A stretch of DNA of 64,000 bases from Chelativorans sp. YIM 93263 (GTDB lineage: Bacteria > Pseudomonadota > Alphaproteobacteria > Rhizobiales > Rhizobiaceae), in assembly GCF_028767125.1 (NCBI RefSeq), contig NZ_JAKCWP010000004.1, positions 1-64,000 on the forward strand, in the 5' to 3' direction. The notes under the pieces are model-generated. The model was not told where the DNA came from, did not search any database, and saw nothing but the letters and a program-made list of their open reading frames with translations. The position numbers were made by a program, and so were the translations under genes. Shown here one piece after another: positions 11,168 to 32,114 of the stretch. Position 1 is the first letter of the stretch. Every line of letters begins with the position of its first letter.

Positions 11168-11968
11168 TTATACCCCGATAGAGCCGAGCGCTTCAGCGCG
11201 AGCCTGCAGCGAAGATTGCGCGCGTATGGTGCCGGCCTGCGAAAGCAGCGTGTTGACTTCCTCGGTGGCTAGCCCGGTAAGCCCGAGCGCACGCGCCTCG
11301 TTGTCCCGATCCAGTAAGCCGTAAATGAGTATGACATTGCGCTTGTGCTGAAGGTTGGCGTCGGGATTGGACGCGACCCTTTGGACGATCGGCAGCGCCT
11401 GGGCATCATCGTTGGCCAGCGCTGCCGCGAGCGCCATGTTGATCTGGACATCCAGATCGTCGGGCGCGAGCGAAAGCGCACGAGCGAACGTGTTCATTGC
11501 CGGCTGGGTCTGGCCTGCAAAGGTTTGCGCCACGCCGAGGCGGTTGTAGGCTTGGCTGGTGTTGACGCTCTGAGCACCCTCGGAAAGCGTTCTTATACCC
11601 GCTTCTGCATCGCCCTGATCGATCATCGCCCAGCCCAGTCCGACGAGGGCCGGGCCATACTTTGGTGAACGCGATAGGGCGGCGCGGTAGGCCTCCATTG
11701 CTTCGTCCGGATAGCCCGAACGCATGTAGACGTCTCCCAGACCGACAAACGTGCTGGCTGGAGCACCCGGTAGCGCAGCAGCCTGTTCGTAAAGTGTGAT
11801 AGCGGTTTCCCATTCGCCGCGCTGCTCGAGATCCGCCGCGAGACTCATGAGGCGAGAGGATTGGCTTGCCGGCTCCGCGCTCGTGTCTTCGCTTCCGCCT
11901 TGCGTTGTAGCGCAACCGGTAAGCGCGATCGCACTCATCACAAGCACAACCGCCATGCGTCGTCGCAT
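11168..11968 (-). CDS. TPR lipoprotein, TadD/PilF-like (candidate pilotin or assembly factor)
   Basis: Lipoprotein of 266 residues with a signal peptide and the lipobox LTGC near residue 20, followed by TPR repeats (AITLYEQAAALPG, VYMRSGYPDEAMEAYRAALS, AMNTFARALSLAPDDLDVQINMA). The organisation is that of TadD, the TPR lipoprotein of Tad/Flp pili, which like PilF/PilW pilotins helps outer-membrane secretin assembly. GGGAG stands before the ATG at 11968; ATG at 11974 is an alternative. It follows the CpaC-type secretin and CpaD-like genes, separated from them by the oppositely oriented sctU. No Tad pilus motor, pilin or peptidase genes are nearby, so recruitment to the T3SS is inferred. Confidence 0.7.
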   Translation of the reverse strand: MRRRMAVVLVMSAIALTGCATTQGGSEDTSAEPASQSSRLMSLAADLEQRGEWETAITLYEQAAALPGAPASTFVGLGDVYMRSGYPDEAMEAYRAALSRSPKYGPALVGLGWAMIDQGDAEAGIRTLSEGAQSVNTSQAYNRLGVAQTFAGQTQPAMNTFARALSLAPDDLDVQINMALAAALANDDAQALPIVQRVASNPDANLQHKRNVILIYGLLDRDNEARALGLTGLATEEVNTLLSQAGTIRAQSSLQARAEALGSIGV

Positions 11969-12021
11969 ATTCATCTCCCACCCATCGCGCGCGGCTTGAC
12001 AGCCCCTCCGCAGAATGCCCA

Positions 12022-12053
12022 TTTCGCCTATCATGAGCAGGTCATAGGCGAAA
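12022..12053. promoter_or_regulatory. Perfect inverted repeat directly upstream of sctU
   Basis: TTTCGCCTAT (12022-12031) and ATAGGCGAAA (12044-12053) are perfect 10-bp arms around a 12-base spacer, ending 3 bases before the sctU ATG and lying in the 88-base divergent gap to the TPR lipoprotein gene. The spacer holds the only SD-like bases (AGCAGG). It may be an operator for the divergent pair or an mRNA hairpin limiting sctU translation. Confidence 0.5.
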
Positions 12054-12056
12054 CCC

Positions 12057-13100
12057 ATGACGCAGGAAAGTGAGGAAAAACAACTTCCTCCCACTGAAAA
12101 GAAACTCAGGGAAGCGCGGCGCAAGGGACAAGTGCCGCAAAGCCGCGATCTGCCGTCGGGTTTGTCTATCTTCGCGGCCCTGACATACCTTTTCTTTGCG
12201 TGGCCCGTTATGTCCGACAGGCTTGTCGAACTGATGGACACGATCGCCAGCCGGCAGAACGATGATTTTGCCGAGGCAAGCGCCTTTGCCGTGCATCAGA
12301 CGCTGATGACGGTGCTGGCGATAATCACGCCGCTGGTGGCCATCACGGCTGCGACCGTGATTATTTTCGGCATTTTTGCGACGGGCGGCCCGGTCTTCTC
12401 TTTCGAGCCTCTCAAGCCGCAGTTTGAAAAGGTAAGTCCGGTTCAGGGCTTCAAGCGGCTGTTTTCGCTCCGCAACCTGGTCGAGTTCGGAAAGAACCTG
12501 CTCAAGGTCGTATTCCTCACCGGACTTTTGACCTTGATCCTGCTGAATTGGCTGCAGCCGCTTTTCGAGGCACCCGGGTGTGGCACGTCCTGCCTGGCAG
12601 GAACGGTCGTGGGTATCCTCACCCCGCTTGGAATAGCGGCCGCACTCGCCTTCGTCGTTATCGGCTTTCTCGACATACCGATTCAAAGTTGGCTGTTCCG
12701 GCGCGACATGCGCATGACGCGCACGGAGTACAAGCGCGAACGAAAGGACATCGAGGGCGACCCGCAGATTAGGCAGGAGTTGCGGCGTCAGCGCCGCGAC
12801 GCAGTTACGCGGCCAGTCAAGCGGGGTTTGGAGAACGCATCTCTGGTTGTTTACCACGGGGACCGTTCGGTAGCGCTGAGATACGTTGCGGGAGAGACGC
12901 CGATTCCGGTCATTGTCGCCAAGGATGAGGGACCCGCCGTCGCTCTGTCGCTTTCTCGTGCGCGCAGCCGCGGATGTCCTGTGGTCGAGGATGCGGCACT
13001 CATCGAGGCGTTGTTCCCGAACGCGCGGGTCGGAAATGACTTGCGTGAAGATCTCTTCCCACTAATTGCGCGATATCTCGTGCGGTTTGGCCTCGTGTGA
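12057..13100 (+). CDS. sctU: T3SS export-apparatus switch protein SctU (FlhB family) with degenerate cleavage motif
   Basis: 347-residue inner-membrane SctU/FlhB homologue. The N-terminus (PPTEKKLREARRKGQVPQSRDL) is canonical, four membrane helices follow, and FKRLFSLRNLVEFGKNLLK is the typical inter-helix segment. The cytoplasmic domain has RMTRTEYKRERKDIEGDP and IPVIVAKDEG. In characterised SctU/FlhB proteins the NPTH loop self-cleaves between N and P to switch substrate class. At the aligned position (residues 266-269, bases 12852-12863) this protein has YHGD, flanked by LVV and RSVALRY, which match the flanks of VI.NPTHYAVALKY. Neither Asn nor Pro is present, so autocleavage by the known mechanism seems impossible. 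The gene is separated from sctRST and lies opposite the surrounding minus-strand genes. Confidence 0.92.
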   Translation: MTQESEEKQLPPTEKKLREARRKGQVPQSRDLPSGLSIFAALTYLFFAWPVMSDRLVELMDTIASRQNDDFAEASAFAVHQTLMTVLAIITPLVAITAATVIIFGIFATGGPVFSFEPLKPQFEKVSPVQGFKRLFSLRNLVEFGKNLLKVVFLTGLLTLILLNWLQPLFEAPGCGTSCLAGTVVGILTPLGIAAALAFVVIGFLDIPIQSWLFRRDMRMTRTEYKRERKDIEGDPQIRQELRRQRRDAVTRPVKRGLENASLVVYHGDRSVALRYVAGETPIPVIVAKDEGPAVALSLSRARSRGCPVVEDAALIEALFPNARVGNDLREDLFPLIARYLVRFGLV

Positions 13101-13183
13101 GTGCAGGAAGACCAGGTGCGGCCCCGGTGTCGCCCGAGCCCCCGTTAGCATTACTGTTGTGAACTGGCAGTCATGATAGTCAG

Positions 13184-13234
13184 CGCCCATTCGCGCCCCC
13201 GCTGTCCTGCAGGACAGATGGGCGCGAATGGGCG
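13184..13234. terminator. Long hairpin between convergent sctU and cpaD-like genes
   Basis: CGCCCATTCGCGCCC (13184-13198) pairs perfectly with GGGCGCGAATGGGCG (13220-13234). Between the arms lies a second perfect palindrome, CTGTCCTGCAGGACAG (13202-13217). Together they form one extended stem of over 20 bp. The position between convergent genes and the lack of a coding frame suggest a bidirectional terminator. Confidence 0.7.
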
Positions 13235-13251
13235 TGGCTGTGGCTGTAAAG

Positions 13252-13692: not shown

Positions 13693-13705
13693 CGGTGTTC
13701 TCCCG

Positions 13706-15037
13706 TTACTTTACGATCATTCCGACGTCGGATGCGCTTTTCTTGCGCGGTTTTGGCGCCGGTCTATCCATGGGCGTTGCAAGCTTGTCATGGCTGACGG
13801 GCTCGACCAGAAAGGGCGTGATGAGGATGACGAGCTCGGTCTCTTCCCGCTGATAACGCTGGGATTGGAAGAGCGCGCCAAGAACAGGTACATCGCCTAG
13901 AACCGGGAATTTCTGAAGATTGCGTGTCAATCTTTGCTGGAACAGACCGGCAAGAGCAAAGGTTTGGCCGCTCGCAACTTCCACAGTCGTATCCGCACGA
14001 CGCACCACAAAGCTGGGCAAGGTCAGGCCCTCGACGGAAACGCTCCCGCTCTCCGACAGCGAACTGACCTCCGGTTGGACGTTGAGCGCAATCCGATTTC
14101 CCCCCAGAAGCGTCGGCGTGAAACCAAGCGAGACGCCGAACGTTTTATAGCTGACGGTTATGGAATCGTTGCCCTGCGGCATGGGAACGGGCACCTCGCC
14201 ACCAGCCAGGAAACTTGCTGTCTGGCCGCTGACGGCGGTGAGATTTGGTTCTGCAAGGATCTTGACGATCCCGTTACGCTGCAAAGCCTCCAGAAACACC
14301 TCGATGTTCACATCACTCGTGCCGATGCTAAATCCGAGATTGGGGTCCGCGGTACCGCCTTGCTTGAACATCCCAAAGCTGAAGCCGCCATCGCTGATGG
14401 TGGTGTTCCAGTCCAGGCCGTAGGAAAGAAGCTCCGAACGCGAGACTTCCGCGAATCGAACACGGATGTTGACCTGCTGGGAGCCTTCGATTCTGGTGTT
14501 GTTCAGCGGCGGATGATCCGGTGGTGAATATGTGCGTGCCACGCTGTCGATATCGACAGCTTCATCCATGTTACGCACCCTTCCCGTTGCAACAATTCGA
14601 TCGCCGAAGAATGTCAGATCAGTCATTGATGTCGGTTGGAGCCGGTTGCGGGCTTCCGTCGCGGAGCTGTTATCCACGCCGACGCGAAATTCCATCGAAG
14701 CTTCGATCTGCTGGCTGGCAGTGACCGCAATGAGATTGGTCACACCGGGCTTCAATCCAAAAACGTAGATAAGATCAGATGACACGATCTGGAGGTCGGC
14801 AATCGTTGTATCAGCGATAAGAACGGACTCTACGGGCTGATCAAAACGCAAAACCTTGCCTTGGCCTACATACAAATCAACCAGTTGCACGCCGGGCTGT
14901 TGCGCATTCGCTGGAGTGCCACCCCCCTGCAGCACCATGAAAAGGCTGACGAGTGCTATTACAAGCCAGGACACTTCCTGTTGTCGGTCGAGCCAGACCC
15001 CGCCGCAGGCGCGGGGCTCGGTGGCAGAAAAACTCAT
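13706..15037 (-). CDS. Outer-membrane secretin of the Tad/Flp pilus type (CpaC/RcpA)
   Basis: 443 residues. The signal sequence ends near ANAQ. The N-terminal domain (LYVGQGKVLRFDQPVESVLIADTTIADLQIVSSDLIYVFGLKPGVTNLIAV) is the T2SS/T3SS_N2 type found in CpaC. A BON-like ring follows, then the secretin core with VNIRVRFAEVSRSELLSYGLDW, ILAEPNLTAVSGQTASFLAGGEVPVP, FGVSLGFTPTLLGGNRIALNV, and FPVLGDVPVLGALFQSQRYQREETELVILITPFLV. This is CpaC/RcpA architecture rather than SctC. The gene lies downstream of sctV in the same direction and before the CpaD-like gene. It probably supplies the outer-membrane pore of this T3SS, with the separate SctC N-domain protein at 29.3 kb as adaptor (inference). Confidence 0.88.
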   Translation of the reverse strand: MSFSATEPRACGGVWLDRQQEVSWLVIALVSLFMVLQGGGTPANAQQPGVQLVDLYVGQGKVLRFDQPVESVLIADTTIADLQIVSSDLIYVFGLKPGVTNLIAVTASQQIEASMEFRVGVDNSSATEARNRLQPTSMTDLTFFGDRIVATGRVRNMDEAVDIDSVARTYSPPDHPPLNNTRIEGSQQVNIRVRFAEVSRSELLSYGLDWNTTISDGGFSFGMFKQGGTADPNLGFSIGTSDVNIEVFLEALQRNGIVKILAEPNLTAVSGQTASFLAGGEVPVPMPQGNDSITVSYKTFGVSLGFTPTLLGGNRIALNVQPEVSSLSESGSVSVEGLTLPSFVVRRADTTVEVASGQTFALAGLFQQRLTRNLQKFPVLGDVPVLGALFQSQRYQREETELVILITPFLVEPVSHDKLATPMDRPAPKPRKKSASDVGMIVK

Positions 15038-15068
15038 TCTAAAGTTCCCCTCTCAAGCAGTAGGCTAT

Positions 15069-15308
15069 TTAAACGGTTGGTCTAAGTTGGCTCCTTGGAT
15101 CACTTTCGAGCATCTTCGACACATTTAAGGGCGACTTTGGCCCGGCCCTGAAGGGCCCGCGCACAAACTTGCCGGTTGGCGTCGCTGTCGCCGAATGTGC
15201 TCGGCATGTCCTTGCTTCTCGCTCTAAGAGCCGACAGGATTTGCCCCGAGGCGCAGACAAATGGCCACCACTGCTCCTCATGTAATTCGACGGCTCGGGC
15301 ATGTTCAC
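15069..15308 (-). CDS. Small hypothetical ORF coupled to sctV
   Basis: 79 codons starting at a GTG that overlaps the sctV TGA by 4 nt (GTGA), with an ATG two codons later. The product is basic and Ser/Pro-rich with no recognised domain. A competing minus-strand frame over the same DNA reads as a plausible helical peptide (ending ALKCVEDARK) but lacks an ATG, GTG or TTG near its beginning. Either frame, or neither, could be real; third-position base use does not separate them. Confidence 0.3.
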   Translation of the reverse strand: MNMPEPSNYMRSSGGHLSAPRGKSCRLLEREARTCRAHSATATPTGKFVRGPFRAGPKSPLNVSKMLESDPRSQLRPTV

Positions 15309-17452
15309 GTTTGCGCAGCCGGGAGCGATTTTGGTCGCTCTCGTGCCTCCACCCGCTGTTGCCGGCTGGTTATGGTGGCCAGTGGCTGGACGTTGAGTTC
15401 CGGCGCGAGTTCCTGATACGAAAGCACCGGGAGTTTCACCTTCTGGCGCGTTAGCAGACTGCGCACGTGACGCCGCACATCCATTCCCGTCAGAACCACC
15501 GGGGCGGTTCCGGCCGTCGCCTTTGAAAGCGCCTCTTCTATCTGCTGGGCGATGAACCGCGCCTCGTCGTCGCCGATATTGACGAATCCACCGGCGGATG
15601 TGTTTTGGACCGCCTTTCGCAATGCTTCTTCCGCCGAAGGCTGCAGGATGTAGGCGGCAATGATCCCGTCGCGGTCGGCCATACGAAAGCTGATCTGACG
15701 CCTCAGCGCGATGCGCACATACTCACACAAAAGTGCCGCATCTTTCTCTCGTTGGCCCCATTCGATAAGTGCTTCCAGTATGATGCGCAGATTGTTGATT
15801 GGAATGTCCTCAGCGACGAGCCGGCGCAGGATTTCCGAGAGCTTTTGAAGCGGTACGATCTCCTGTGCCTCGCGAACGAGATCGGCGTATTCATCTTCCT
15901 GCGAAGACAACAGTTTGCGCGTTTCCTGAATGCCGATGAAATGGTCGGCGTAGCCGCGCAATGCGTGCTCGATGACCTGTCCAAGAAATTCCGCATGCTG
16001 AAGATGCCCCAAATTCGCCTTCGCCAGGTTAGCCACGTGGCGGCTTTCAACCCATATCGGCTTCTGCCGGCCTGCTACCGGTGACCCCGTCGTATAAGGC
16101 ACTTCCAGGAGCTCCAGGTCCGTTGGATTTGCGGTGACAAGCACCTGATCGCGTGGAGCCTCCACGGAGAGAATGGGGGCGCCTTCAAGATCGACCCGCA
16201 TGCGATTGGATTCAATTCCGTCGTCGACATAGGTACCGATGGACGGCACTTCGATGCCGAGGTCGGCCTTGAGGGCCGCCCGGACCTGTTCACATCGCGC
16301 GCTGAGCTCTGCCTTTGGCACCAAGTTGCCGAGATCGTTTCCAAGCCACACAACAATGCGGTCCGGTGCGGGCAGGCTGGGCGCTTTCTCGTATTCCAAT
16401 GGTCGGGGTTCGGCGTCTGCCGGTGTTTGATCCTGATCCTCGGTTGACGGGGTAACGTTGACCGGTTTGGTCTCGCCTGGGCGCCGGTAAATTCCATAGG
16501 CGCCAGCCCCCAGGATTGCGCCCAGGATGAGAAATACCAGCGAGGGGAAGCCTGGCACCAGGCTCAAGGCTACGAGAATAACGGCACCGAAGGTGAGGGT
16601 TCTGGCGTCACGCAGCAATTGTCCGGTGATTTGCCGGCCAAGGTCGCCCTGATCTTCCGCTCCCGTGACCCGTGTAATCATCGTACCCGAAGCCACGGAA
16701 ATCAGCAGCGCCGGGATTTGTGCAACAAGGCCGTCTCCCACCGTCAAAAGGGAGTAGGTCTGCATGGCGTCACCGAGCGACATACCCCGCTGCAGCGTTC
16801 CGACGGCAAAACCGCCGATCAGATTGACCAGGATTATGAGAATGCCGGCGATCACATCGCCTTTGACGAACTTCATGGCGCCATCCATCGCGCCATAGAG
16901 TTGGCTTTCATGCTCGAGTTGCTTGCGCAGGCGCCGAGCCTCGGCCTGGTCGATATCGCCATTGCGCAGTTCGGCATCAATGCTCATCTGTTTGCCCGGC
17001 AAAGCGTCGAGCATGAAACGCGCAGCCACTTCGGCGACTCGTTCCGCGCCCTTGGCAATCACCACGAACTGCGCGACCGTAATGATGAGGAAGATGACGA
17101 GCCCGACCGCGATACTGCCGCCGACGACGAAGGCGCCGAAGGCCGTCACGATCTCGCCCGCGTCGGCCTGAAGGAGGATGAGCCGCGTCGTGGTGATGGT
17201 AATGGCAAGGCGAAAGAGCGTCGCCAACAGGATCACCGACGGCAGCGACGAAAATTGCAGGGGATGCGTGACGTAAAGCGCCGCAAGCAGGATCAACACA
17301 CTGAATGCGATGTTGGCCGTAATGAGAATGTCCACAAGCCACGTCGGCAGCGGAATCAGCATCATCGTCACTGCGACGAGCATAAGGACGGCGACAACCA
17401 GATCGCTGCGCCGGGAAAGCTTCGACAGGAACGGCAGAATCCGTTCAAGCAC
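15305..17452 (-). CDS. sctV: T3SS export gate protein SctV (FlhA family)
   Basis: 715 residues from a GTG at 17452 preceded by AGGAGG. The N-terminal half carries about eight membrane helices with the canonical FSSLPSVILLATLFRLAI...TTRLILLQ block, the FHIPEP-region equivalent (RFMLDALPGKQMSIDAELRNGDIDQAEARRLR), and GDGLVAQIPALLISVASGTMITRV. The C-terminal cytoplasmic domain forms the nonameric ring that receives export substrates. The start overlaps the end of sctY by 8 nt. Two upstream in-frame ATG codons would place the start inside sctY and are less likely. Confidence 0.95.
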   Translation of the reverse strand: MLERILPFLSKLSRRSDLVVAVLMLVAVTMMLIPLPTWLVDILITANIAFSVLILLAALYVTHPLQFSSLPSVILLATLFRLAITITTTRLILLQADAGEIVTAFGAFVVGGSIAVGLVIFLIITVAQFVVIAKGAERVAEVAARFMLDALPGKQMSIDAELRNGDIDQAEARRLRKQLEHESQLYGAMDGAMKFVKGDVIAGILIILVNLIGGFAVGTLQRGMSLGDAMQTYSLLTVGDGLVAQIPALLISVASGTMITRVTGAEDQGDLGRQITGQLLRDARTLTFGAVILVALSLVPGFPSLVFLILGAILGAGAYGIYRRPGETKPVNVTPSTEDQDQTPADAEPRPLEYEKAPSLPAPDRIVVWLGNDLGNLVPKAELSARCEQVRAALKADLGIEVPSIGTYVDDGIESNRMRVDLEGAPILSVEAPRDQVLVTANPTDLELLEVPYTTGSPVAGRQKPIWVESRHVANLAKANLGHLQHAEFLGQVIEHALRGYADHFIGIQETRKLLSSQEDEYADLVREAQEIVPLQKLSEILRRLVAEDIPINNLRIILEALIEWGQREKDAALLCEYVRIALRRQISFRMADRDGIIAAYILQPSAEEALRKAVQNTSAGGFVNIGDDEARFIAQQIEEALSKATAGTAPVVLTGMDVRRHVRSLLTRQKVKLPVLSYQELAPELNVQPLATITSRQQRVEARERPKSLPAAQT

Positions 17453-17780
17453 GTGCTTCGTCCTCCTGCCCGGCAAGGAACTTCCGGAAAGACGCACGTG
17501 CTTCATCCGTCCGTCCGGCAAGCGTCAATGCGCGGCTCCTCAACAAGGCGAGGGCGGGATGTCGGGCAGTGTCTTCCATGGTCTCCAGCCGCTCGATCGT
17601 AGCCAATGCCTTATCCGCTTCGCCATCACGAACAAGAAGATGCGCGAGAGTACGCAGGATGCCGGAATCCTCGGGAGCGAGTTGAACTGCAATCAGCAAA
17701 TAGGCCACCCCTCGCTTCACCTGTCCGTGACTGCCGTAGAGGTGACCGAGAACATGCAGCAGATGCACCGTGTCACGCAC
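17445..17780 (-). CDS. sctY: SctY-like TPR protein (YscY family candidate)
   Basis: 111 residues built from TPR-like helices (LLHVLGHLYGSHGQVKRGVA, LTLAGRTDEARASFRKFLAG). Length, helix pattern and C-terminal motif are like YscY, the TPR chaperone that binds YscX in the Ysc-family T3SS. Position agrees: in Yersinia yscX-yscY precede the sctV homologue directly, as here. The alternative is a YscG-like needle chaperone. Assignment rests on remembered sequence and synteny. Confidence 0.65.
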   Translation of the reverse strand: MRDTVHLLHVLGHLYGSHGQVKRGVAYLLIAVQLAPEDSGILRTLAHLLVRDGEADKALATIERLETMEDTARHPALALLRSRALTLAGRTDEARASFRKFLAGQEDEARA

Positions 17781-17781
17781 G

Positions 17782-18219
17782 TCAATCAGGCTCCACTCCC
17801 TCCTGCATCCTTTCGAGAAGGTACTGATGGCGTTCTATTTCCTCCTCTATCAAGGTGGTAGCCATCTTGTGGAGCTCTTCACCCCCTCTCAGCTCTGGAA
17901 CCAGCTCGGTTACGAATTGCTCCAGGATGGATGCAGAACGCTGAAGAATGTCCCCATCCGGAATTCCAGGTGCCACGAAATCGGCAAGGAGTTCGTCGGG
18001 CGAGCGCTTCCGATCGGGGGACGCCGAACGGGCCGGGTCTTGAAGTTCCGCCCCGCCGGGCGTTTGCGATTCCTGTGCGCGGTCCGCCTGGAGTCGGACT
18101 TTATCGATCTGCTGACGCCGTACAGCCTCGTCGCGCTGCACCTCGGGATTCTGCGCCGAGCGCGCGTTCGAATGGATGCTGGACGTATCAACCCGAAGTG
18201 CTTCGATGCGCCGCGTCAT
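17782..18219 (-). CDS. sctX: SctX-like T3SS early-substrate/export accessory protein (YscX candidate)
   Basis: 145-residue soluble protein with a disordered, Arg/Gln-rich N-terminal half and a helical C-terminal half. The junction carries LLADFVAPG, matching the remembered YscX segment (LWDFASPG), and is followed by two long helices (ILQRSASILEQFVTELVPEL; LIEEEIERHQYLLERM) as in YscX. It is one base apart from the SctY candidate and overlaps the sctD stop by 4 nt. In Yersinia, YscX is an early export substrate required for secretion. Confidence 0.6.
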   Translation of the reverse strand: MTRRIEALRVDTSSIHSNARSAQNPEVQRDEAVRRQQIDKVRLQADRAQESQTPGGAELQDPARSASPDRKRSPDELLADFVAPGIPDGDILQRSASILEQFVTELVPELRGGEELHKMATTLIEEEIERHQYLLERMQEGVEPD

Positions 18220-19220
18220 CGATACTCGATGGCCATTTCTGTCCCACCTTTGGCCAGAAGCAGCCGCTCTTCCCCAATTTCCTTGATGATCCAGCCGCCA
18301 TCGACGAACGCCCCTTCGTGGTAGCGTGCGCCGCCGGCAGTAATGATATAGGGGCGCTCGCCATACCAGATCGCCCGCAACGGAAGCCGCGGTACTTCGC
18401 TGGCGTTACCGATCACGACATTGGACATCAACAGAAGTCGCCCGCCGTGAACCTCGTCGAACCAGGCTTGAACAGATCTCCACGCCTCGGCTCTGTGATC
18501 GGGAACGCTGCCGGAGACGACGATACGGCCTTTCTCGGCCGTTAAGGAGAGGCCGCTAAGGCCCGCCTGTTTCATTTGCGACTGCAGCGCACCAAGCGCT
18601 TGCTGTTCTGGCGCGGGTTGTTCTTGTGAGGTCGCACCGCCTGAAGCATCTGCGCGCGCCAAGTTTACATGCGCGCTGTCCGAATCTTCGGCATTGCCCG
18701 GAGAAAGCGTGTTGGACGCGACCGGAACGGCGAAGATCGCCGCCGCCAACCCGACTGCAATCATGAACGAGCGGTTCGAGAATGGCAATTTCGCCGGGCG
18801 CGGTGGACGTGTGTCGAGCAGGCGCAAATTCGCACCGCCGAGGGAAATCTCCAAGGGCAGCCGGCAGCGCCGGCCATACCCTTCCGGGACGGTGTCTCCG
18901 TCGATAATTCGAACTGCCCCGCCAAGCGCTTCCAGATCCACACGGTCGTCTACGATACGCAGCCGCACATGGATGTCCGCGATTTCGGGATCGCTTAGGA
19001 CAACATCGGCTTCGACACTCGATCCGACGGTGAACGTCGTTTCGCCAAAATCCAGCCGGGCACCCGAATGCAGGCCACCGGTCACTTCGAAATCGATATA
19101 GGGCTCACCGCTCTGCACGCGATCGGCATCCATTTCCAGGCCGGGAATGTTGTGTGAAATCCGGAGTACGAGGGCCGTGTCCCTAACGCGGTCAACAAAT
19201 TTCGTCATCTCGGCCATCAT
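18216..19220 (-). CDS. sctD: T3SS inner-membrane ring protein SctD (YscD/PrgH type)
   Basis: 334 residues. An N-terminal FHA-like domain (about 40-140; FTVGSSVEADVVLSD, IADIHVRLRI) is followed by one membrane helix near 152-170 (SFMIAVGLAAAIFAVPVAS) and a periplasmic part with a BON/ring-building-like repeat (GLSGLSLTAEKGRIVVSGSVPD). This is SctD architecture, though the periplasmic portion is short for the family (usually about 400 residues in total). The short periplasmic region may matter for docking onto the non-canonical secretin. It lies between the needle-like gene and sctX. Confidence 0.85.
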   Translation of the reverse strand: MMAEMTKFVDRVRDTALVLRISHNIPGLEMDADRVQSGEPYIDFEVTGGLHSGARLDFGETTFTVGSSVEADVVLSDPEIADIHVRLRIVDDRVDLEALGGAVRIIDGDTVPEGYGRRCRLPLEISLGGANLRLLDTRPPRPAKLPFSNRSFMIAVGLAAAIFAVPVASNTLSPGNAEDSDSAHVNLARADASGGATSQEQPAPEQQALGALQSQMKQAGLSGLSLTAEKGRIVVSGSVPDHRAEAWRSVQAWFDEVHGGRLLLMSNVVIGNASEVPRLPLRAIWYGERPYIITAGGARYHEGAFVDGGWIIKEIGEERLLLAKGGTEMAIEYR

Positions 19221-19337
19221 TCAGGCGCACCTCCCAAGGACTTGCGATATGCTCGAACACCGCGGATCAAATTCCCATGGCCCGGAATGCGCGTGTCGCG
19301 TCAAGGCCCGCGACACGCGTTCCGCGTACACGCTGCG

Positions 19338-19627: not shown

Positions 19628-19661
19628 CATTTGGAATTTTTTTAGAACCTTGTTCCAAATG
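19628..19661. promoter_or_regulatory. Inverted repeat CATTTGGAA-N16-TTCCAAATG in divergent promoter
   Basis: Perfect 9-bp arms at 19628-19636 and 19653-19661 lie in the gap between the left T3SS operon (minus) and the RpiR regulator gene (plus). The right arm extended to 19666 (TTCCAAATGTTGCA) recurs in reverse orientation at 29213-29226 upstream of the right T3SS arm. The nearby A/T tracts suit a promoter. A binding site for the adjacent RpiR-type regulator is likely but unproven. Confidence 0.6.
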
Positions 19662-19719
19662 TTGCATTTTTATGAAGGTGGCCGTAATCTTCAACCGGGC
19701 AAGGGGCAAAGAGACAGAG

Positions 19720-20586: not shown

Positions 20587-20656
20587 GAGCGCTTGTCCGC
20601 TGGGGAGGAGATGGCCGGCGACGTTCTTCGGGCTTGATTTGAGGGAGAGGATACTG

Positions 20657-23600: not shown

Positions 23601-26600
23601 AGGAATGGAATTCGCTGCTGATAGGCGAGCCGGACTCCGGCGCTCCTGTCTGTACGCAGAATCACCCGGCGGCCTTGAGGGCCGCAGAGCTTCAGGCGGG
23701 CGAAACCGTCAATCGCACCCTCGAGGAGCAACTGGACGTCCGGATCGAGGATATCAATGGCCAGATCGAGGAACTCGAACAGGAGTACAACGAACTTCTC
23801 GAAGAGCATGGTTTGGGCAGCATAGAGCCGCCGGAAGGCGCGCTCCCGGATGGGATCGACCCGGTCGAGATCAATGTGAACGGCACGCCGGTGAAAGTGC
23901 ACCCCGACGTCGCCGACGATTATGAGGCACAGGGCCTCGAGGCGCTGAATGGCGATGCGCCGGTGGCCATCCACATCGACACCGATGAAGATGGCGAGGC
24001 GGATGAATGGCGCTGGGTTGCCCCCGAAATCGCGCAGAGTCGGATCGCCCTGGATCTGGCGCGCGACCTTCGTGACGAGCTCGACCAGATCCGCGCCACC
24101 GCCGATACAGCCGCCGACTGGTACTCTTTCCAGCAAACGCAGCCCTTGAAGCTTTTGGACGACAGCGCCTCTCACGAGCATGCAAGAGAGCTGGAGTTCG
24201 CTTATTTCGACGAGCGCAGGGACGACGTGCTGGAGCGTGTCCAACTCCAAGTGCAATCGCTCTACGATGGCGGATATGATGAAACCTTCCGTTCCGTGAC
24301 CGATGAGACCATCATCGAAGCCTTGCACCTCGATACCTCGACCGATGAAGGCAGCGAAGCGCTCGATAAGGTTCGCGAGGAGATCCGGGATATCGGCGGT
24401 GATAACGCCGAAGTCCGCACTGTGCCGATTTTCTACATCGATAACGAAATCGGCATGCAGCAGAGCGCACTCTTCGCCGTCAAGAATGATGATGGCGACA
24501 CGCGCTATGTCGATGTCGCGGGAAAGGCCTTCGACAGCGTCAAGGACTTTCAGGACAACAACAATCAATACTCCGAAGACGGCGATCTGATTGTTCCTAC
24601 CGATTTCCGGATGAATCCGGATGCCGATGGACACATCAAACTCGATGTTGTTCAGGCCCGGAACGTCTCGGCATTGGACAAGGTGGTTGATCCGCTGGTC
24701 GGTATCGGCACCGGAGTTGCGACCGTCCTCTCATTTACGCCCGCCGCACCGGTCGCTGCGCCACTGGCGGTTGCCGGAGCAGGTTACCTCGGCACACGCG
24801 CCGCTATACATCAGGTTAATCACCTGCGGCACGGCGGTGAATGGGGCGAAACCGAATCCTGGATGAACATGGCGATGGTCGCCACGACCGTGCTGCCGAT
24901 GGCAGGCAGCGGCCTGCGAATGGTTGGAATGGCGCGCAGCCTTAATATGACGAAAGGCCAGGCGTTCCTGGCCGGGATGGGCGCACTGCGCACGACGGGT
25001 ACGGCCAATGCCGCGGCCGATGCCGGGCGTCTCAGTCAGCTTTGGCACAAGGCTCCCTATGCCGCCGGACAGGTGGACGACTATATCCGGACAGCAGGCG
25101 GATTAAACATGGCCGCACACACGCTCGATGCGAGCGCGATGGCAGTCGGTACTCCGCTGATGTACGTCACGGCAAAGGATCTTGCCCTGCATCACGACCA
25201 GATGTCGGGACTGCAGATTGCCGATGCGATAACTGGCTTTGCGACAGGGCTTGCCGGCACCGGCCTCGGAGCAAAAAGCATTTCCGCTTATGCTAGGGCC
25301 GACAAGAAGCCGTTCACCCGCGCGACCGACGAAAATGGCCAAAGCATCAGTGCCGCTGTCTCTGGGCGTCAGCCGGTGGACGAAGACCAGGTTTATGTGC
25401 CGCGGGCGGACGGTCCGCAGATGCGCGGGGATGAGCCGGAGCTCGCGGGCAAGACGCATATTCTGGTGCGCGATCCCGATATGGGAGAGTCGTCCATTGC
25501 ACCCCCCTGGGACCGTGGCGGACCCCAGAATCATCGAGCGGCTTCTTCTTCAGAACCGGACGCTTCGACCGGTGAAATCGTAAGCATCGATCTGCCATTG
25601 CGCTCCCATGCCGATCCGGCTGGATGGCCATCCTTCTCTCTCGATGGAAAAACGGTTCGCGGCTTTTCCGCCGATGACATCGCGAACCTGTCAAAGATTG
25701 AACTGCGCGCAATCGAGCCAAAGGCGTTTGAGCAGCTTTCCGCCGAGCAGATGGCGGCATTTTCACCCGAGCAAATTAACTGGATGCGGTTCGACCAGAT
25801 TGCCGCTCTTCGTCCCAAGCAGCTTCGCGCAATGAACGGTGAGCAGTTGCGGGCGATCCGGCCGTTCTCGCTGGAAGCCATCAAGCCTGGACGGCTTACT
25901 TACTTGAGTGCAGAGCAGACGGCTTCCTTCACCCCGAGACAACTCGCGGCAATGACGCCGGAACAGGTTGCAAAGCTGACGCCCGATCATTTCGCCGCCT
26001 TCAACGATGATCAACTTTTTGTATTCAGGAGCGAACAGTCGGCTGCCATTCGACCCGCTCAAACGGCCAAACTGGACCAAGCGCAGATCGACCTCCTTCG
26101 AACAGATGGTCAGGAAAATAACCATCAAACGAGGAATGTAGCAGGCAGAGCAAAGGATTTGGCCTATCATTACGGGCCTTATCTCGGCTCGAATGTGACG
26201 CTCGCTGCTACTCTCCCGCCTGAAGTCCTGATCGCAGGTAACGGCGCTAGCCTTATCCTCAGGGGCATGGCAACCACCCCACTCGCACTGGCGCCGAAGC
26301 ATACGGACGTCAATACAAAGCTCGGTCGCAGCTTGCGGGGAGCGATCGCGATCTCCTTCTTTTTGAACGGTCCTTACCACGTTACCTCTTTCTCCACTGG
26401 TGAAGGGACACCGTATAATCAGCTTTATGCCGTCTGGGATCACACCGAAGGAGCGCAGTACGGGCATCAGGCAATAAAGGGAAAGGAGTACGAACCCTCG
26501 AAAGTTGAAAAGTATGCGGGATTGACGGCTCTGGGTGCGGCCAATGCCCTCCTCATGGCCACCTACTCGGTTCCCGCCGGGCCTAGTGCTTGGATACCGA

Positions 26601-27391
26601 ATGCTCTCTCTGGTATCGGGTCCGCGTATTTGGGGTATAAGAGCGTGCGCGCCGATATAGACGCTTTCCGCGCCTCAAGGAGAGGCCCAGGGGATACCAC
26701 AGCATCGACGGAACCAAAGAGCAGTGGCCTTTCCGACGCGGCAAAGGAACGGCTGGCGAGAGGGGCTGTCGGAGTCGGAGTTACGGGCTTTGGTATCCAT
26801 TATTGGATCGAGAATGTATTGGCGGGGGACGAAAACGAGGTGACAACTCCCGTGGAGGAGAGTTCTCCGCCTGGTCAGGAAGAACCGGAGGAAACTCCGT
26901 CGCCGTCGGCGCCCGGCGATTCCGATGGGCCGACCGAGCCCACTCCGACGTCCGAGCTGCAGCCGGAGGATCGGGAGGAGTCGGACGAACGGCCGCAATT
27001 ACGCGAGGAACCGGGGATCGGAGACAACCGGAAAACCATGCTCCAGCCGGCCGCCTTGATAGAGGAAAACGGCAGGCGTGAAACCGACGAGACCGGTCGG
27101 GAATGGGGTGCCGTGCGCGGTCGTGACTGGGCGGGCAATGAGCATGAAGGCTGGGTGTCCACCAACTATGTGGAACCGCACGAGGAAGGCGAACAGACCC
27201 GCGATGGTCGCATCAATCCGGATCTCGAAAATGAAGGCTATGAATGGATCGAGGTGAAATCCGGGCAGTCGTTTGGCAGTATAGCGCGAGAAAGGTCAAT
27301 CGATACTGCCGAAGCTGTCATGCTGAACGATCATATTTTCGACCCCAACATGATCTTCGAGGGTGACCGGATCTATCTGCCTCCCGCGTAA
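20657..27391 (+). CDS. Giant 2244-residue LysM/SH3-like protein, candidate T3SS substrate or envelope protein
   Basis: Starts at the ATG at 20657 behind GGGAGAGG. No signal peptide. In order: a Gln/Thr-rich N-terminus; two similar helical modules (about 115-160 and 285-330; GHSIDAVAEDQDLSRDEV, GKSIGTIAEERGLTREQV); a LysM domain (about 407-457; GESLHSIAEEYGVPVEELKE); three related modules ending in a WHWV or WRWV motif (about 590, 800-865, 1070-1135); an Ala/Gly-rich hydrophobic region (about 1338-1548) that recalls DUF4781; 18 tandem octapeptides (1671-1814); a hydrophobic segment; an acidic Pro/Glu linker; an SH3-like domain (about 2125-2175); and a C-terminal LysM (about 2193-2244). Highly acidic. 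It lies between the T3SS arms and is the only very large non-core gene there. A secreted effector or peptidoglycan-binding T3SS accessory is inferred. Confidence 0.85.
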   Translation: MPVRRISPLMKAPWEAMAAIRAAVAELQRQQAEATKQSTTASSQVTRPSSGDNSVNGSNGTQPTSATPADWTPSNDGQNAGGPVPGNDPDMRFTFTAVSFEDGSLQNKPSEADQETADAILEDIEAGHSIDAVAEDQDLSRDEVAEALESDGYSVETAEPESGDDGVHTTEITDPDGERTVTEYHDQSDGTYHTGIQEEGSEEELSSVRDERGWKVEEEHDSETGVTTTRYEDDLDSGTVVEERELPSGVVVRETTPEDGETTTVVISDGEETELAADQDTTKGGTANILDDVVEGKSIGTIAEERGLTREQVIAQLEAAGYEVDISDPDQDVPISSEIEIRDAKSGEVEASYFRHYRNGTIIQEYVDEDGNRVRRVEQDDGTIRETVTDPEGRETLTTTTPVNDGVPVEHEVDEGESLHSIAEEYGVPVEELKEQNEELFEGRGDVIRPGETIIIDGATETTVEEIFNGYTLTTGPDGELALENHENETEIEIEAGSIEEALARTLISINPNSDNASEAEEDAIVKTVIEGMFAGETYGDVKGDAEEAAAATDAAIEEHGLGPEATPVTEVDENGNVVIIDFQGEPPQDPDVDHVPVQIEGTWHWVHPEVAEAIMAQKVALGELIAHQTEMERIQAQIDIWALDPGSEDAWNAAGNTLDEVFREALGDRYSWRRPEPQADDLEDALERLTDAETSVEEAGEALEASEEAERLMGEAIEKRGDMPSMRPDPDGENITEPGSDFDIDEEVKEYDEDFAEFKSLVYQADYQSALGDSILTDLMVRNIESSFDTSVEGLPDDVDRVEIEVGDQSVEVAPEVAEAFDEEGLSALADGGQPVRIRFDADGDGAAEWHWVSAEEAASWLQFKEEQAAFDKQLEITGAYAEFYQVRSDRAAMELEAHDIKERLLEAYNEGNEHLFEEGKKHSTIGGDYLGTLRGQEVIEEDGQLWIVNTFSDGETRQQLTYDLADVEGDESYRFHELNEEWNSLLIGEPDSGAPVCTQNHPAALRAAELQAGETVNRTLEEQLDVRIEDINGQIEELEQEYNELLEEHGLGSIEPPEGALPDGIDPVEINVNGTPVKVHPDVADDYEAQGLEALNGDAPVAIHIDTDEDGEADEWRWVAPEIAQSRIALDLARDLRDELDQIRATADTAADWYSFQQTQPLKLLDDSASHEHARELEFAYFDERRDDVLERVQLQVQSLYDGGYDETFRSVTDETIIEALHLDTSTDEGSEALDKVREEIRDIGGDNAEVRTVPIFYIDNEIGMQQSALFAVKNDDGDTRYVDVAGKAFDSVKDFQDNNNQYSEDGDLIVPTDFRMNPDADGHIKLDVVQARNVSALDKVVDPLVGIGTGVATVLSFTPAAPVAAPLAVAGAGYLGTRAAIHQVNHLRHGGEWGETESWMNMAMVATTVLPMAGSGLRMVGMARSLNMTKGQAFLAGMGALRTTGTANAAADAGRLSQLWHKAPYAAGQVDDYIRTAGGLNMAAHTLDASAMAVGTPLMYVTAKDLALHHDQMSGLQIADAITGFATGLAGTGLGAKSISAYARADKKPFTRATDENGQSISAAVSGRQPVDEDQVYVPRADGPQMRGDEPELAGKTHILVRDPDMGESSIAPPWDRGGPQNHRAASSSEPDASTGEIVSIDLPLRSHADPAGWPSFSLDGKTVRGFSADDIANLSKIELRAIEPKAFEQLSAEQMAAFSPEQINWMRFDQIAALRPKQLRAMNGEQLRAIRPFSLEAIKPGRLTYLSAEQTASFTPRQLAAMTPEQVAKLTPDHFAAFNDDQLFVFRSEQSAAIRPAQTAKLDQAQIDLLRTDGQENNHQTRNVAGRAKDLAYHYGPYLGSNVTLAATLPPEVLIAGNGASLILRGMATTPLALAPKHTDVNTKLGRSLRGAIAISFFLNGPYHVTSFSTGEGTPYNQLYAVWDHTEGAQYGHQAIKGKEYEPSKVEKYAGLTALGAANALLMATYSVPAGPSAWIPNALSGIGSAYLGYKSVRADIDAFRASRRGPGDTTASTEPKSSGLSDAAKERLARGAVGVGVTGFGIHYWIENVLAGDENEVTTPVEESSPPGQEEPEETPSPSAPGDSDGPTEPTPTSELQPEDREESDERPQLREEPGIGDNRKTMLQPAALIEENGRRETDETGREWGAVRGRDWAGNEHEGWVSTNYVEPHEEGEQTRDGRINPDLENEGYEWIEVKSGQSFGSIARERSIDTAEAVMLNDHIFDPNMIFEGDRIYLPPA

Positions 27392-27426
27392 ACGAGTACA
27401 CGGCAGGTGAGTGCGCGCGGTGAGGG

Positions 27427-28356
27427 TCAGCCGGTTTTCGCCTGTAGCATCACCTGCCGCTGCATCGAGTAGGTCTTTGCAACCTTGGCGGCCAAAAGGG
27501 CAGCGTGCTCGGCAATGGGATTGAATGGATCCATCGAAAAAGACGCTGTGAATTCCAGGTTCGAGGGGTGCCATTCGCAACTGATGGTCCGCAGCTCGCC
27601 TCTTTCCAATGGCTCCGCCACGACATCGTAGGGAAGCGCCCCGATACCAATTCCATTGACGACCATGCGCAGCGCAGCGGCCAGCGAGTTGACCGGGAAC
27701 ATCCGCGGCGGATCGTCCATGTCCGTACTCAGCTTGTGGTAGAGCTCGTTGTGTGGGCGCGTCGTGCGGGCGTAGGTGAGGATCGGAAAACGCACCAATT
27801 CGCAGAGCGTCACTGTCGTCTGCGGCAGACTGAGATGCGGTGCGCAGACCCAGACCAGTGGGACCGAGGGCACATTGATGTTTTCGATCCGGTACTCCGA
27901 TACAGGGCCCATGAGAATAGCGGTATCGAGCCGGTGCGAAATAAGGTCGTTGCGCAGATTTAGAGTGACGTCCACGACCAGGTCGACGTCGATCCGTGGA
28001 TAGTTATCGTGGAATTCCTTCAGGAAATCGGACAACCACGTGTGTACAATGGTTTCGGCAACGCCGAGACGCAGCACACCATTCACCGTCGACAGTGTGT
28101 TGGCCGCCCTTTGTAGGCGATCCGCCGTGCGCAAGGTCCGCTGTACCAGCGGAAGTAATTGCTGGCCCATCGAGGTAAGGCGAACGGTGTTGCTTAAACG
28201 CTCGAAAAGCCGCACGTCCAGTGCTCGCTCAAGACTTGCGATGCGAGCGGAAACGGCCGGCTGTGTCGTGTTCAGTTGATTGGCCGCCTTGCGGAAACTG
28301 CCGAGGGTGGCCACCCAGATGAATGTCTCAAGCTGCTTGATGTTAAAGGGAATCAC
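27427..28356 (-). CDS. LysR-family transcriptional regulator
   Basis: 309 residues from the GTG at 28356, which has GAGGA upstream; a longer frame from 28386 is possible. The N-terminal winged helix (LETFIWVATLGSFRKAANQLNTTQPAVSARIASLERAL) is followed by a substrate-binding domain (LRLGVAETIVHTWLSDFLKEF). The GVAETIVHT segment is shared with the second LysR at 38.4 kb, so the two belong to the same subfamily. It lies convergent to the giant gene and upstream of nothing obvious of its own, within the T3SS locus. Effector and targets unknown. Confidence 0.9.
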   Translation of the reverse strand: MIPFNIKQLETFIWVATLGSFRKAANQLNTTQPAVSARIASLERALDVRLFERLSNTVRLTSMGQQLLPLVQRTLRTADRLQRAANTLSTVNGVLRLGVAETIVHTWLSDFLKEFHDNYPRIDVDLVVDVTLNLRNDLISHRLDTAILMGPVSEYRIENINVPSVPLVWVCAPHLSLPQTTVTLCELVRFPILTYARTTRPHNELYHKLSTDMDDPPRMFPVNSLAAALRMVVNGIGIGALPYDVVAEPLERGELRTISCEWHPSNLEFTASFSMDPFNPIAEHAALLAAKVAKTYSMQRQVMLQAKTG

Positions 28357-28454
28357 GGCGATCCTCGCGTCACAATCTGCAGCCACAACCTTTGCATGCA
28401 GACCCCGATGTCCACAATCGCTGCCCGTCTCTGTCGAAAATTACGATCCCGCCA

Positions 28455-29156
28455 TCAGTCCCGGACAATGACCGTTGCGCCAGTTGCTACCCTCTCATAA
28501 AGATCGATAGCATCCTCATTGGTCAGTCGAATGCAACCGGACGAGGTCGCTTGACCCACCGTCCAGGGCTGGTTCGTTCCATGAATGCGATAAAGGGTAT
28601 TCCCGATATAGAGCGCGCGCGCGCCGAGCGGATTGTTCGGCCCGCCTTCGACATGCGCGGGCAAGATATTGCCTTTTGCCGCCTCCCGCCGACGCATTTC
28701 CTCCGGCGGTCTCCAGTCCGGCCATTCGCGTTTTTCCGTTATGCGGTCCCGACCGCTCCAACTGAAGCCTTCGCGTCCAACGCCCACGGTGTATTGCAAC
28801 GCCTTTCCGTTGCTCTGCACCAGATATAGCCGCCTCTGTGACGTGCTGATGACGATCGTACCGGCCGGTACGGGTTCCGTAAACGGCACCACCACGCGTG
28901 TAGACTGGCCCCGATTCGAATGCGTACCGGGATATCCGTGCATCTGGGGCTGTCCGGGATCGACGAGGGTGTGCGTCGTCTCGTCAAAGGTCCAGGTCCT
29001 GGGATCGTAGCCGCCCGGCTGCGCAAGCGCACCGGAAGCGGCCAGTGCCAGGATGCCGATCAGCGCATATATCCATCGAGTGAGGCGGCATACGACGTTG
29101 GCTGCCGGAAGAAATCGGCAAAAACAGTCGCACGCCAGGTCCAGCCATAACTTCAT
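28455..29156 (-). CDS. L,D-transpeptidase (YkuD family)
   Basis: 233-residue exported enzyme. An N-terminal membrane or signal segment (WIYALIGILALAASGALAQ) precedes a YkuD domain with the catalytic motif IHGTNQPWTVGQATSSGCIR near the C-terminus (His and Cys of the HXnSXGCXR/A pattern both present). The segment VISTSQRRLYLVQSNGKA is the usual YkuD opening. Such enzymes make 3-3 peptidoglycan crosslinks or attach lipoproteins to the wall. It lies 178 bases upstream of, and divergent from, the right T3SS arm, so a role in wall remodelling for needle-complex assembly is possible (inference). Confidence 0.9.
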   Translation of the reverse strand: MKLWLDLACDCFCRFLPAANVVCRLTRWIYALIGILALAASGALAQPGGYDPRTWTFDETTHTLVDPGQPQMHGYPGTHSNRGQSTRVVVPFTEPVPAGTIVISTSQRRLYLVQSNGKALQYTVGVGREGFSWSGRDRITEKREWPDWRPPEEMRRREAAKGNILPAHVEGGPNNPLGARALYIGNTLYRIHGTNQPWTVGQATSSGCIRLTNEDAIDLYERVATGATVIVRD

Positions 29157-29212
29157 TCGAATCCCATTGGACTATCCATAAGATTCTGCAGCATACCCGG
29201 TTCTTTGGGTGA

Positions 29213-29254
29213 TGCAACATTTGGAATTTTTTCCGCATGTCGGTCCAATTGGAC
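29213..29254. promoter_or_regulatory. Palindromic operator candidates upstream of right T3SS arm
   Basis: An imperfect palindrome with arms CATTTGGAA (29218-29226) and TTCCGCATG (29231-29239) around four T residues is followed by a perfect 12-bp palindrome GTCCAATTGGAC (29243-29254). TGCAACATTTGGAA (29213-29226) is the exact reverse complement of 19653-19666 beside the RpiR gene. The gap is divergent between the L,D-transpeptidase and the SctC N-domain gene. Confidence 0.6.
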
Positions 29255-29334
29255 TTTTCTTTCGGGCCGGCTGGCTATAGGGTGAAGCAGGATCTCCTTG
29301 TGTCGGCCGACCGGCAAATGCGGACTGCGAGAGC

Positions 29335-29958
29335 ATGGAATTCAGCTTCGGCGAAATGACGAGACCGTCCCTTAGGTTTTACGGCTTCGTGCTTGCTGCA
29401 TGCGTGTGCGTCAGTGCTCCGGTCCTGGCCGCGGAGCCGGAGTGGCCTTCCGGCACGTACAAGTACATCACCATCGAGCAGCCGGTGGAGAACGCTCTGC
29501 GTGAGTTTGGACGCAATGTGGGCATGCCGGTGCAAGTGAGCGAACAGGTGCGGGGCACGCTTAATCACGGCATGCCGCGGGGCACCGCGCAGGAGTTTTT
29601 GGAGTGGATCTGCGACCGGTACGGTCTTGTCTGGTACTATGACGGTACGATCCTGCACGTGGCCGCGGAAGGGGAGGTGCGCACCGAAATGGTGAAGTTG
29701 GCCGCGGAGGATATGCAGGATGTTCGCCTGCGCCTGGACGGCCTCGGTGTCAGTGATCCGCGCTACCCAATCCGCCTTCGCGACGAGAACATTCTCTCGG
29801 TTTCCGGTCCGCCGGCCTACATCGGAGCCGTAAGAGAAGCACTGGGTTTGCTGTCAGGGCCGGCGACCTCTCATATCGCGAGAGAAACGGAGCGTTCCGG
29901 CCCCGTTCGTGTCTTTCGCGGACGGAGCGTGGCCGAAGTCGAACCCGGTGGGAATTAG
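29335..29958 (+). CDS. Separate SctC N0-N1 domain protein (RhcC1 type)
   Basis: 207 residues with a signal peptide ending near PVLAAEP. Domain N0: WPSGTYKYITIEQPVENALR, VQVSEQVRGTLNHGMPRGTAQEFLEW, YGLVWYYDGTILHVA. Domain N1: LDGLGVSDPRYPIRLRDENI, LSVSGPPAYIGAVREAL. These are typical of the periplasmic N-terminal rings of SctC secretins, but there is no secretin pore domain. Rhizobial T3SS commonly have SctC split into RhcC1 and RhcC2; here the pore partner in the locus is a CpaC-type secretin instead. Start at ATG 29335; an internal ATG at 29356 is possible. First gene of the right arm. Confidence 0.85.
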   Translation: MEFSFGEMTRPSLRFYGFVLAACVCVSAPVLAAEPEWPSGTYKYITIEQPVENALREFGRNVGMPVQVSEQVRGTLNHGMPRGTAQEFLEWICDRYGLVWYYDGTILHVAAEGEVRTEMVKLAAEDMQDVRLRLDGLGVSDPRYPIRLRDENILSVSGPPAYIGAVREALGLLSGPATSHIARETERSGPVRVFRGRSVAEVEPGGN

Positions 29959-30639: not shown

Positions 30640-30647
30640 CTCGTCTC

Positions 30648-32092: not shown

Positions 32093-32114
32093 GCCATTCT
32101 TTTGGGGAGGCGAG

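Follow-up and report, generated by a model that had tools for sequence, protein, structure and literature searches.

A Tad-type outer-membrane gene set in an Rhc subgroup II type III secretion locus of Chelativorans sp. YIM 93263

The stretch of DNA analysed here, hereafter the window, comprises positions 1-64000 of contig NZ_JAKCWP010000004.1 of Chelativorans sp. YIM 93263 (genome of 4.25 Mb in 27 contigs) and carries a type III secretion system (T3SS) in which a secretin, a CpaD-like lipoprotein and a tetratricopeptide repeat (TPR) lipoprotein resembling those of Tad pili lie among the T3SS genes. The locus is a further example of a known design, Rhc subgroup II (Rhc-II). With a probability of roughly 0.85 by our estimate, this Tad module and the adaptor RhcC1 form the outer-membrane part of the Rhc-II T3SS and together provide pilotin, collar and coupling to SctD. 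The gene identities, the conserved linkage, the clade membership and the conserved C-terminal peptide of the secretin are direct observations on the following features and their relatives:

13706..15037, minus strand: Tad-type secretin, RhcC2 of Rhc subgroup II (PF00263 at 2e-43, PF13629 at 1e-15, RcpA 8odn at 4.8e-54, Rhc-II clade 100/100)
13709..13723, minus strand: final five residues of the secretin, likely to dock the TPR lipoprotein (pattern conservation; residues 412-416 of RcpA bind TadD according to PMC10499894)
13252..13692, minus strand: CpaD-like lipoprotein, apparently only the C-terminal part left (PF09476 at 5e-5, sub-cut-off; profile score of 108 bits)
11168..11968, minus strand: TadD-like TPR lipoprotein, likely pilotin (TPR families, lipobox, TPR tree)
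29335..29958, plus strand: RhcC1, stand-alone SctC N0-N1 protein (TIGR02516 at 6e-24 over 2-139 of 463; MxiD at 1.2e-8)
18216..19220, minus strand: SctD of the Rhc type, Y4yQ (PF23893 at 4.5e-22, PF21934, PF16697)

Gene identities and subgroup assignment

The secretin combines the Pfam Secretin domain with an N-terminal T2SS-T3SS_pil_N domain (PF13629), and its best sequence match in the PDB, the Tad secretin RcpA, is far stronger than the T3SS secretins MxiD (1.9e-4) and InvG (4.5e-4), which bears out the CpaC/RcpA type proposed in an earlier note on this DNA. The PF13629 domain and a C-terminus of the TadD-docking pattern place the protein in the Tad secretin family (RcpA/CpaC), and the N0-N1 domains and an SctC-type pore are not united in one protein, as they would be in an SctC secretin. 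Compared with canonical SctC secretins such as InvG and MxiD, N0-N1 is matched by RhcC1, whereas the pore domain of the window secretin is much nearer to Tad secretins. Among the named genomes the contig scan met one relative, an uncultured Nitratireductor metagenome-assembled genome whose secretin is 90% identical.

RhcC1 has a signal-peptide-like start, and its match to TIGR02516 (SctC) and its PDB matches to the N-domains of MxiD, InvG and EscC (1e-8 to 1e-6) agree with its earlier description as a stand-alone SctC N0-N1 protein. In the view of Abby & Rocha 2012 (PMC3459982), RhcC1 corresponds to the N-terminal portion of an SctC-like secretin and was perhaps retained as a linker to SctD. 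SctD itself had been thought unusually short, but its 334 residues are ordinary for the family, most relatives in related loci having ∼300-350, and its rhizobial domain Y4YQ_C (PF23893) makes it an SctD of the Y4yQ type common to subgroups I and II.

The CpaD-like protein has 146 residues with a lipobox, MAGC, seen in the sequence. It matches PF09476 at 23.5 bits (cut-off 31.1) over model positions 151-198 of 200 and the NCBIfam CpaD model at 0.024, while an iterative profile that includes the CpaD proteins of annotated Tad loci backs the proposed homology with its 108 bits. In three Rhc-II CpaD proteins that we scanned only the end of PF09476 was matched, whereas the one scanned from Rhc subgroup I (Rhc-I) matched the whole model (1-200, 1.4e-17), and median lengths are 151 residues in Rhc-II, 204 in Rhc-I and 231 in Tad loci. 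A GC..NL core is present in 21/21 Rhc-II and 26/37 Tad proteins. In a model of the Caulobacter complex CpaD lies around the CpaC barrel, and its N-terminal OmpA-like fold may bind peptidoglycan (PMC13170226); because apparently only the C-terminal part of the family remains here, the window CpaD has probably retained barrel binding and lost wall binding.

The third protein, of 266 residues, starts at 11968 or, equally possibly, at 11974, and its lipobox (LTGC) and matches to many TPR models fit the TadD-like TPR lipoprotein described before. Its alignment holds two near-invariant Asn columns (window residues 177 and 211), neither of which is assigned to D139 of TadD; no solved TadD chain turned up in the PDB sequence comparisons.

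Around these genes the T3SS is laid out as follows:

12057..13100, plus strand: SctU (PF01312 at 3e-77)
15305..17521, minus strand: SctV (PF00771 at 1e-208)
17445..17780, minus strand: SctY-like chaperone (NF052415 at 64.2 bits, cut-off 70)
17782..18219, minus strand: small open reading frame (ORF) at the SctX place (no family match; distant relatives at the same place in related loci)
28455..29156, minus strand: L,D-transpeptidase, a recurrent Rhc-II neighbour (PF03734 at 6e-24; matches in 11 other Rhc-II loci)
30555..31463, plus strand: SctJ, start uncertain (PF01514 at 2e-28)
31313..36314, plus strand: SctK, SctL, SctN, SctO-like, SctQ and SctR (PF06578, PF06635, PF00006/PF18269, PF07321 weak and sub-cut-off, PF01052, PF00813)

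Of the T3SS neighbours named in the earlier note, sctU, sctV, the SctY-like gene and sctD are thus confirmed and sctX is not. Its remark that further Tad genes are missing also holds, as single-sequence queries taken from L029, an annotated Tad locus of Skermanella, for CpaB, CpaE, CpaF, TadB, TadC, Flp and CpaA left the window unmatched at E 1e-4; with pilin, prepilin peptidase, CpaB, CpaE, CpaF and TadB/C all unmatched, the window does not qualify as a Tad pilus locus.

Both of our secretin trees (75 and 87 rows) place the window secretin in one clade with that of T3SS-2 on pNGR234b of NGR234 at 100/100. SctV alone pairs the window with NGR234 T3SS-2 at 62/97, and because its backbone did not resolve we used a core tree of SctV, SctN, SctJ and SctU (32 rows, some with two or three genes only, and 1770 columns; root chosen by us on four other T3SS), which unites the window, NGR234 T3SS-2 (L038) and the other subgroup II members at 100/100. 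Rhc-I and a further T3SS locus, L113, join Rhc-II in this tree at 99/98, with the R. etli type placed elsewhere.

Gene content and order agree with this placement. The window has the split secretin, with RhcC1 (N0-N1) and a Tad-like RhcC2, and compared directly it resembles NGR234 T3SS-2 in this split and in its Y4yQ-type SctD. A TPR gene near rhcC2 and two ORFs between sctD and sctV are present as described for subgroup II (PMC3574062), and the operon sctD-X-Y-V-C2-small ORF-TPR of NGR234 and Pseudomonas syringae T3SS-2 recurs here, the latter system being likened by its published description only (PMC3574062). The window departs from these two systems in sctU, which is encoded on the opposite (plus) strand and separates the minus-strand genes of the two lipoproteins. 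Subgroup I (pNGR234a of NGR234, Bosea and, from the literature, M. loti) shares NolW/RhcC1, RhcC2, the TPR lipoprotein Y4yS and a CpaD-family lipoprotein adjoining the secretin; it differs in its longer CpaD and in its arrangement, with y4yS behind sctV and away from the secretin and rhcC2 apart from sctV (references L035 and L041), which the window does not show.

The earlier note had read the locus as a chimera. The Tad-derived outer-membrane set and the retained SctC N0-N1 protein stand, yet as a one-off novelty the proposal fails, since the secretin lies inside the RhcC2 clade of Rhc-II, a placement within SctC/RhcC2 being the very result that had been named beforehand as speaking against it. 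A Tad-derived outer-membrane module in an injectisome is in substance already published for rhizobia (PMC3459982, PMC4311626, PMC4500985 and PMC3574062).

Linkage, putative docking peptide and proposed assembly

We surveyed 30 Rhc-II loci in which the secretin could be seen (the window, L026, L028, L032-L034, L038, L039, L042-L046, L049-L053, L109-L111, L114, L119-L121, L123, L124, L129-L131) and nine Rhc-I loci (L035, L041, L054-L056, L227-L230); as they were found by similarity to window proteins or by PF23893, they are not a random sample. PF23893 scores above its cut-off in 23/397 genomes of the order and 20/398 of the phylum (overlapping sets). CpaD adjoins the secretin in all 30 Rhc-II loci, with anything from a 121-base overlap to a 15-base gap, and in 9/9 Rhc-I loci. 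It was not found in the four loci with SctC- or GspD-type secretins (L037, L040, L133, L134) or in L135. The TPR lipoprotein gene is present in 28/30 Rhc-II loci; in Rhc-I it lies apart from the secretin. Leaving the window aside, 29 Rhc-II loci pair a secretin with CpaD and 27 of these also have the TPR gene, and we reject a unique chimera on this count too.

With little change of gene order (sctD, X, Y, V, secretin, CpaD, TPR, sctU, with TPR or sctU flipped in some), this set is found on plasmids from Phyllobacterium, Rhizobium, Ensifer, Sinorhizobium and Ciceribacter, and it also occurs in three genomes outside the class of the window organism (G533, G750, G759) and on a Halomonas plasmid. 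On that plasmid (L039:22255-23549) and on a Ciceribacter plasmid (L044:22209-23551) the secretin gene is split over two frames, by decay or sequencing error.

A rival reading is that the trio strayed from a Tad pilus locus into the T3SS genes by accident and serves the Tad pilus of this genome. Such a locus does exist (L024, C1:626000-645900), and no TadD-like match was found within the stretch of it examined. However, L024 carries its own secretin, CpaB, CpaD, CpaE, CpaF, TadB and TadC, its secretin is only 38% identical to that of the window, and 30 Rhc-II loci from several genera show the same set. This conserved synteny refutes the idea of strays, to which we give next to no weight. A loss of the trio from the genome's own Tad locus is likewise rejected for secretin and CpaD, both present in L024, which is therefore not the Tad locus lacking just these three genes whose discovery the earlier note had said would count against it.

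In the Tad system the last four residues of RcpA are required for TadD recruitment and secretin assembly, and the TPR groove accommodates its residues L414 and D416 (PMC10499894). The Rhc secretins end similarly. We defined the C-terminal pattern, after inspection of the tails, as G, F/Y/M/L, a hydrophobic residue or S/T, and then at most four residues; it is kept in 30/30 Rhc-II and 8/9 Rhc-I secretins (the ninth ends GLGVE), in L113 and in 31/53 Tad rows, compared with 2.4% of shuffled tails, and is absent from all four SctC- or GspD-type secretins. The PF13629-bearing secretins of L132 and L135 end GFITR and GFIY. By analogy with RcpA the pentapeptide of the window secretin is likely the docking peptide for the TPR lipoprotein, which is in turn the likely candidate pilotin; in M. 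loti, a y4yS mutant has less RhcC2, Y4yS being a TadD-related TPR lipoprotein (PMC4311626). Both the RcpA-TadD docking and the Y4yS effect are thus established in other systems.

Together these data suggest a working model in which the TPR lipoprotein would bind the C-terminal residues of the secretin and deliver this protein to the outer membrane. The CpaD-like lipoprotein, a small protein, would encircle the barrel of the secretin, and RhcC1, as the N0-N1 remnant of an ancestral SctC, would join the Tad secretin to the inner-membrane protein SctD. In a Caulobacter Tad model the bridge between CpaC and CpaB is CpaI, a free protein that resembles a secretin N-domain (PMC13170226), and it is CpaI's place that RhcC1 may hold. 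The window thus resembles the Tad pilus outer-membrane complex (CpaC/RcpA, CpaD, TadD) in its three proteins, the adjacency of secretin and CpaD and the C-terminal docking peptide, and differs in a shortened CpaD and in being presumably coupled to SctD rather than to CpaB.

Several points weigh against this model. The match of the window CpaD scores below the Pfam threshold and is confined to the final quarter of the family model, and L050 and L051 have no TPR gene within the stretch examined. The C-terminal pattern is post hoc, 22 of the 53 Tad rows miss it (12 differ at the third place only, e.g. GFELD, and ten otherwise), the window peptide has a terminal Lys in place of the terminal Asp of RcpA, and a search for charge-swap covariation of the last secretin residue with the TPR groove detected none. 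An AlphaFold prediction of RhcC1 alone was unusable (predicted local distance difference test, pLDDT, 40). A TPR pilotin is evidently not required in every Tad system, because CpaO, the TadD orthologue of C. crescentus, is dispensable (PMC13170226). Finally, all the protein contacts in the window's organism are ones that we infer.

Possible Tad sources of the module

The trio had been proposed to be captured as a unit, an idea supported by the linkage (30/30 and 9/9) and by the common Tad partners in the secretin and TPR trees; the CpaD tree does not resolve and its weak placements differ. The secretin trees hold 24 of the 30 Rhc-II loci (L039 and L044 were omitted for their two frames, and L043, L046, L111 and L119 by thinning) and all nine Rhc-I loci; L132 was dropped after the first tree (branch of 2.1). 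The trees of the trio hold 21/30 Rhc-II loci, being additionally without L045 and without L050 and L051 (no TPR gene seen), and 6/9 Rhc-I loci, the other three having no TPR gene in the stretch examined. We screened 26 further Tad loci for the trio, left out 14 that lacked one of the three genes and dropped L225, L226, L231 and L232. The Tad rows are best matches to an Rhc-II query, and an Rhc-I query gave largely the same genomes.

In the trees, secretin and TPR of Rhc-I group with another Tad lineage than those of the window. The 75-row secretin tree sets Rhc-I and L113 with the Skermanella Tad locus at 99/96 and Rhc-II elsewhere, the 87-row tree repeats this at 100/97, and the TPR tree (54 rows) sets Rhc-I with the same Tad loci at 89/96 and Rhc-II elsewhere. 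Combining the trio (53 rows) puts Rhc-I with Skermanella Tad at 98/94 and Rhc-II with the Tad locus of genome G972 at 95/93, and the approximately unbiased (AU) test rejects a single clade at p 0.0099; with two Azospirillum loci and others added (62 rows) the layout is the same (Rhc-I group 95/86, Rhc-II with G972 89/98), although the bootstrap had not settled. A single clade is also rejected for the 75-row secretin set (p 0.026 and 0.028) and for TPR once eight long or distant Tad rows are removed (p 0.034). The best BLAST partner outside their own group is a Tad protein for 21/21 Rhc-II secretins, CpaDs and TPR proteins, in a comparison that pits 38 Tad rows against 7 other rows. For Rhc-I the best partner in another T3SS is L113 and never Rhc-II, and Tad proteins beat L113 in 1/6 secretins, 5/6 CpaDs and 5/6 TPR proteins. 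Since the core genes unite the two lines at 99/98 (with our chosen root), and the scanned Rhc-I CpaD matches all of PF09476 where the three from Rhc-II match only its end, these data support different Tad sources, by two captures or by one ancestral capture followed by replacement of the module in one line, perhaps in Rhc-I by an Azospirillaceae-like module.

The evidence is not uniform, however. The AU test does not reject a single clade for the 87-row secretin set (p 0.216), the 62-row trio (p 0.152) or TPR with all rows (p 0.16). The CpaD tree sets Rhc-II beside Skermanella at 64/23 and Rhc-I beside L208 at 95/69, and Skermanella, with which the other genes group Rhc-I, is the best Tad partner of 14/21 Rhc-II CpaDs. 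The Tad neighbour of Rhc-II is weak and shifting, being G972 at 85/87, 74/76, 95/93 and 89/98, whereas the 87-row secretin tree has a different pair of loci there at 74/83.

A single capture in a common ancestor of Rhc-I and Rhc-II, passed on by descent alone and with fast and uneven evolution of the module producing an apparent split, is in line with these failures to reject on the larger sets. It also agrees with the core tree, which unites both lines with L132 next to them, with the Tad-type secretins of L132, L113, Rhc-I and Rhc-II alike, and with the published view of a single recruitment in Rhizo (Abby & Rocha 2012, PMC3459982, where RhcC2 branches with Tad secretins). Yet no unconstrained module tree united Rhc-I and Rhc-II, long stems would tend to attract rather than separate them, and secretin and TPR agree in their Tad partners. 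Because the core genes unite what no free module tree does, we lean slightly towards a second capture or a module replacement, to which we would give even odds, a single capture falling just short of that; the split among the AU tests and the dissent of CpaD keep us from a stronger preference.

Tentatively, and with a little under an even chance of being right, the Tad outer-membrane set may be seen as an exchangeable cassette, drawn from at least two Tad lineages, pilotin and docking peptide included on every occasion, with the N0-N1 remnant staying as a fixed adaptor in CpaI's place and the CpaD of Rhc-II losing its peptidoglycan-binding part; L135 would then be a further case. L135:17436-19783 lies in a T3SS outside Rhc-I and Rhc-II and has an RhcC1-like gene directly beside its diverged secretin. 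L132:4460-7350, a T3SS whose core genes stand next to Rhc-I and Rhc-II, has a long-branch PF13629 secretin, a TPR protein and a weak CpaD match; RhcC1 was not found within the stretch examined.

Neighbouring genes, published record and significance

Loci of the R. etli type in R. etli IE4803 and B. septentrionale (L040:25465-27567 and L037:25949-27979) encode a full secretin with a GspD-type N0 and three N-domain matches, which could be their outer-membrane pore; subgroup III is described as lacking rhcC2. Just before sctV in L044, at the expected SctY place (19642-19977), the plasmid table predicts a rifampin phosphotransferase (100% identity), likely a misprediction.

Between the two T3SS arms of the window an open frame of 2250 residues (20639-27391) matches LysM, DUF4781 and ALTTAQ repeat models, and LysM or DUF4781 giants are annotated close to T3SS genes in Phyllobacterium, Ensifer and Bosea as well; the protein is possibly a secreted substrate or a wall-acting partner. 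A LysR regulator (27427-28386) and the L,D-transpeptidase lie near rhcC1. Relatives of the latter follow sctU in 11 further Rhc-II loci, two Tad loci (L058, L059) also have one alongside, and, speculatively, it may have a role in wall passage or anchoring.

For subgroup I, Mercante 2015 (PMC4311626) noted that mlr8762 of M. loti resembles CpaD, the only pairing of RhcC2 with CpaD met in our literature search, and the plasmid record of pNGR234a labels its gene 'CpaD family'. Tampakaki 2014 (PMC3973906) mentions ttsI, rhcC2 and y4xK, a putative lipoprotein. For subgroup II, Gazi 2012 (PMC3574062) reported the split secretin and, in P. syringae, a TPR ORF between C1 and C2, and Gazi 2015 (PMC4500985) the lack of a y4yS gene. 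Among the titles listed in our search, which most subscription journals lie outside, none concerns a docking peptide in T3SS secretins, a subgroup II CpaD or two Tad sources. To this record we add a survey of gene linkage, the C-terminal docking peptide, the shortening of CpaD and a hint of two Tad sources.

Subgroup II, reported to be without y4yS (PMC4500985), thereby gains a concrete pilotin candidate with a docking peptide, and the published single recruitment of RhcC2 is reopened. The module is an example of a multi-ring secretion machine exchanging its outer-membrane pore: the pore moves along with its collar and pilotin, and the resulting mismatch may be absorbed by a small adaptor.

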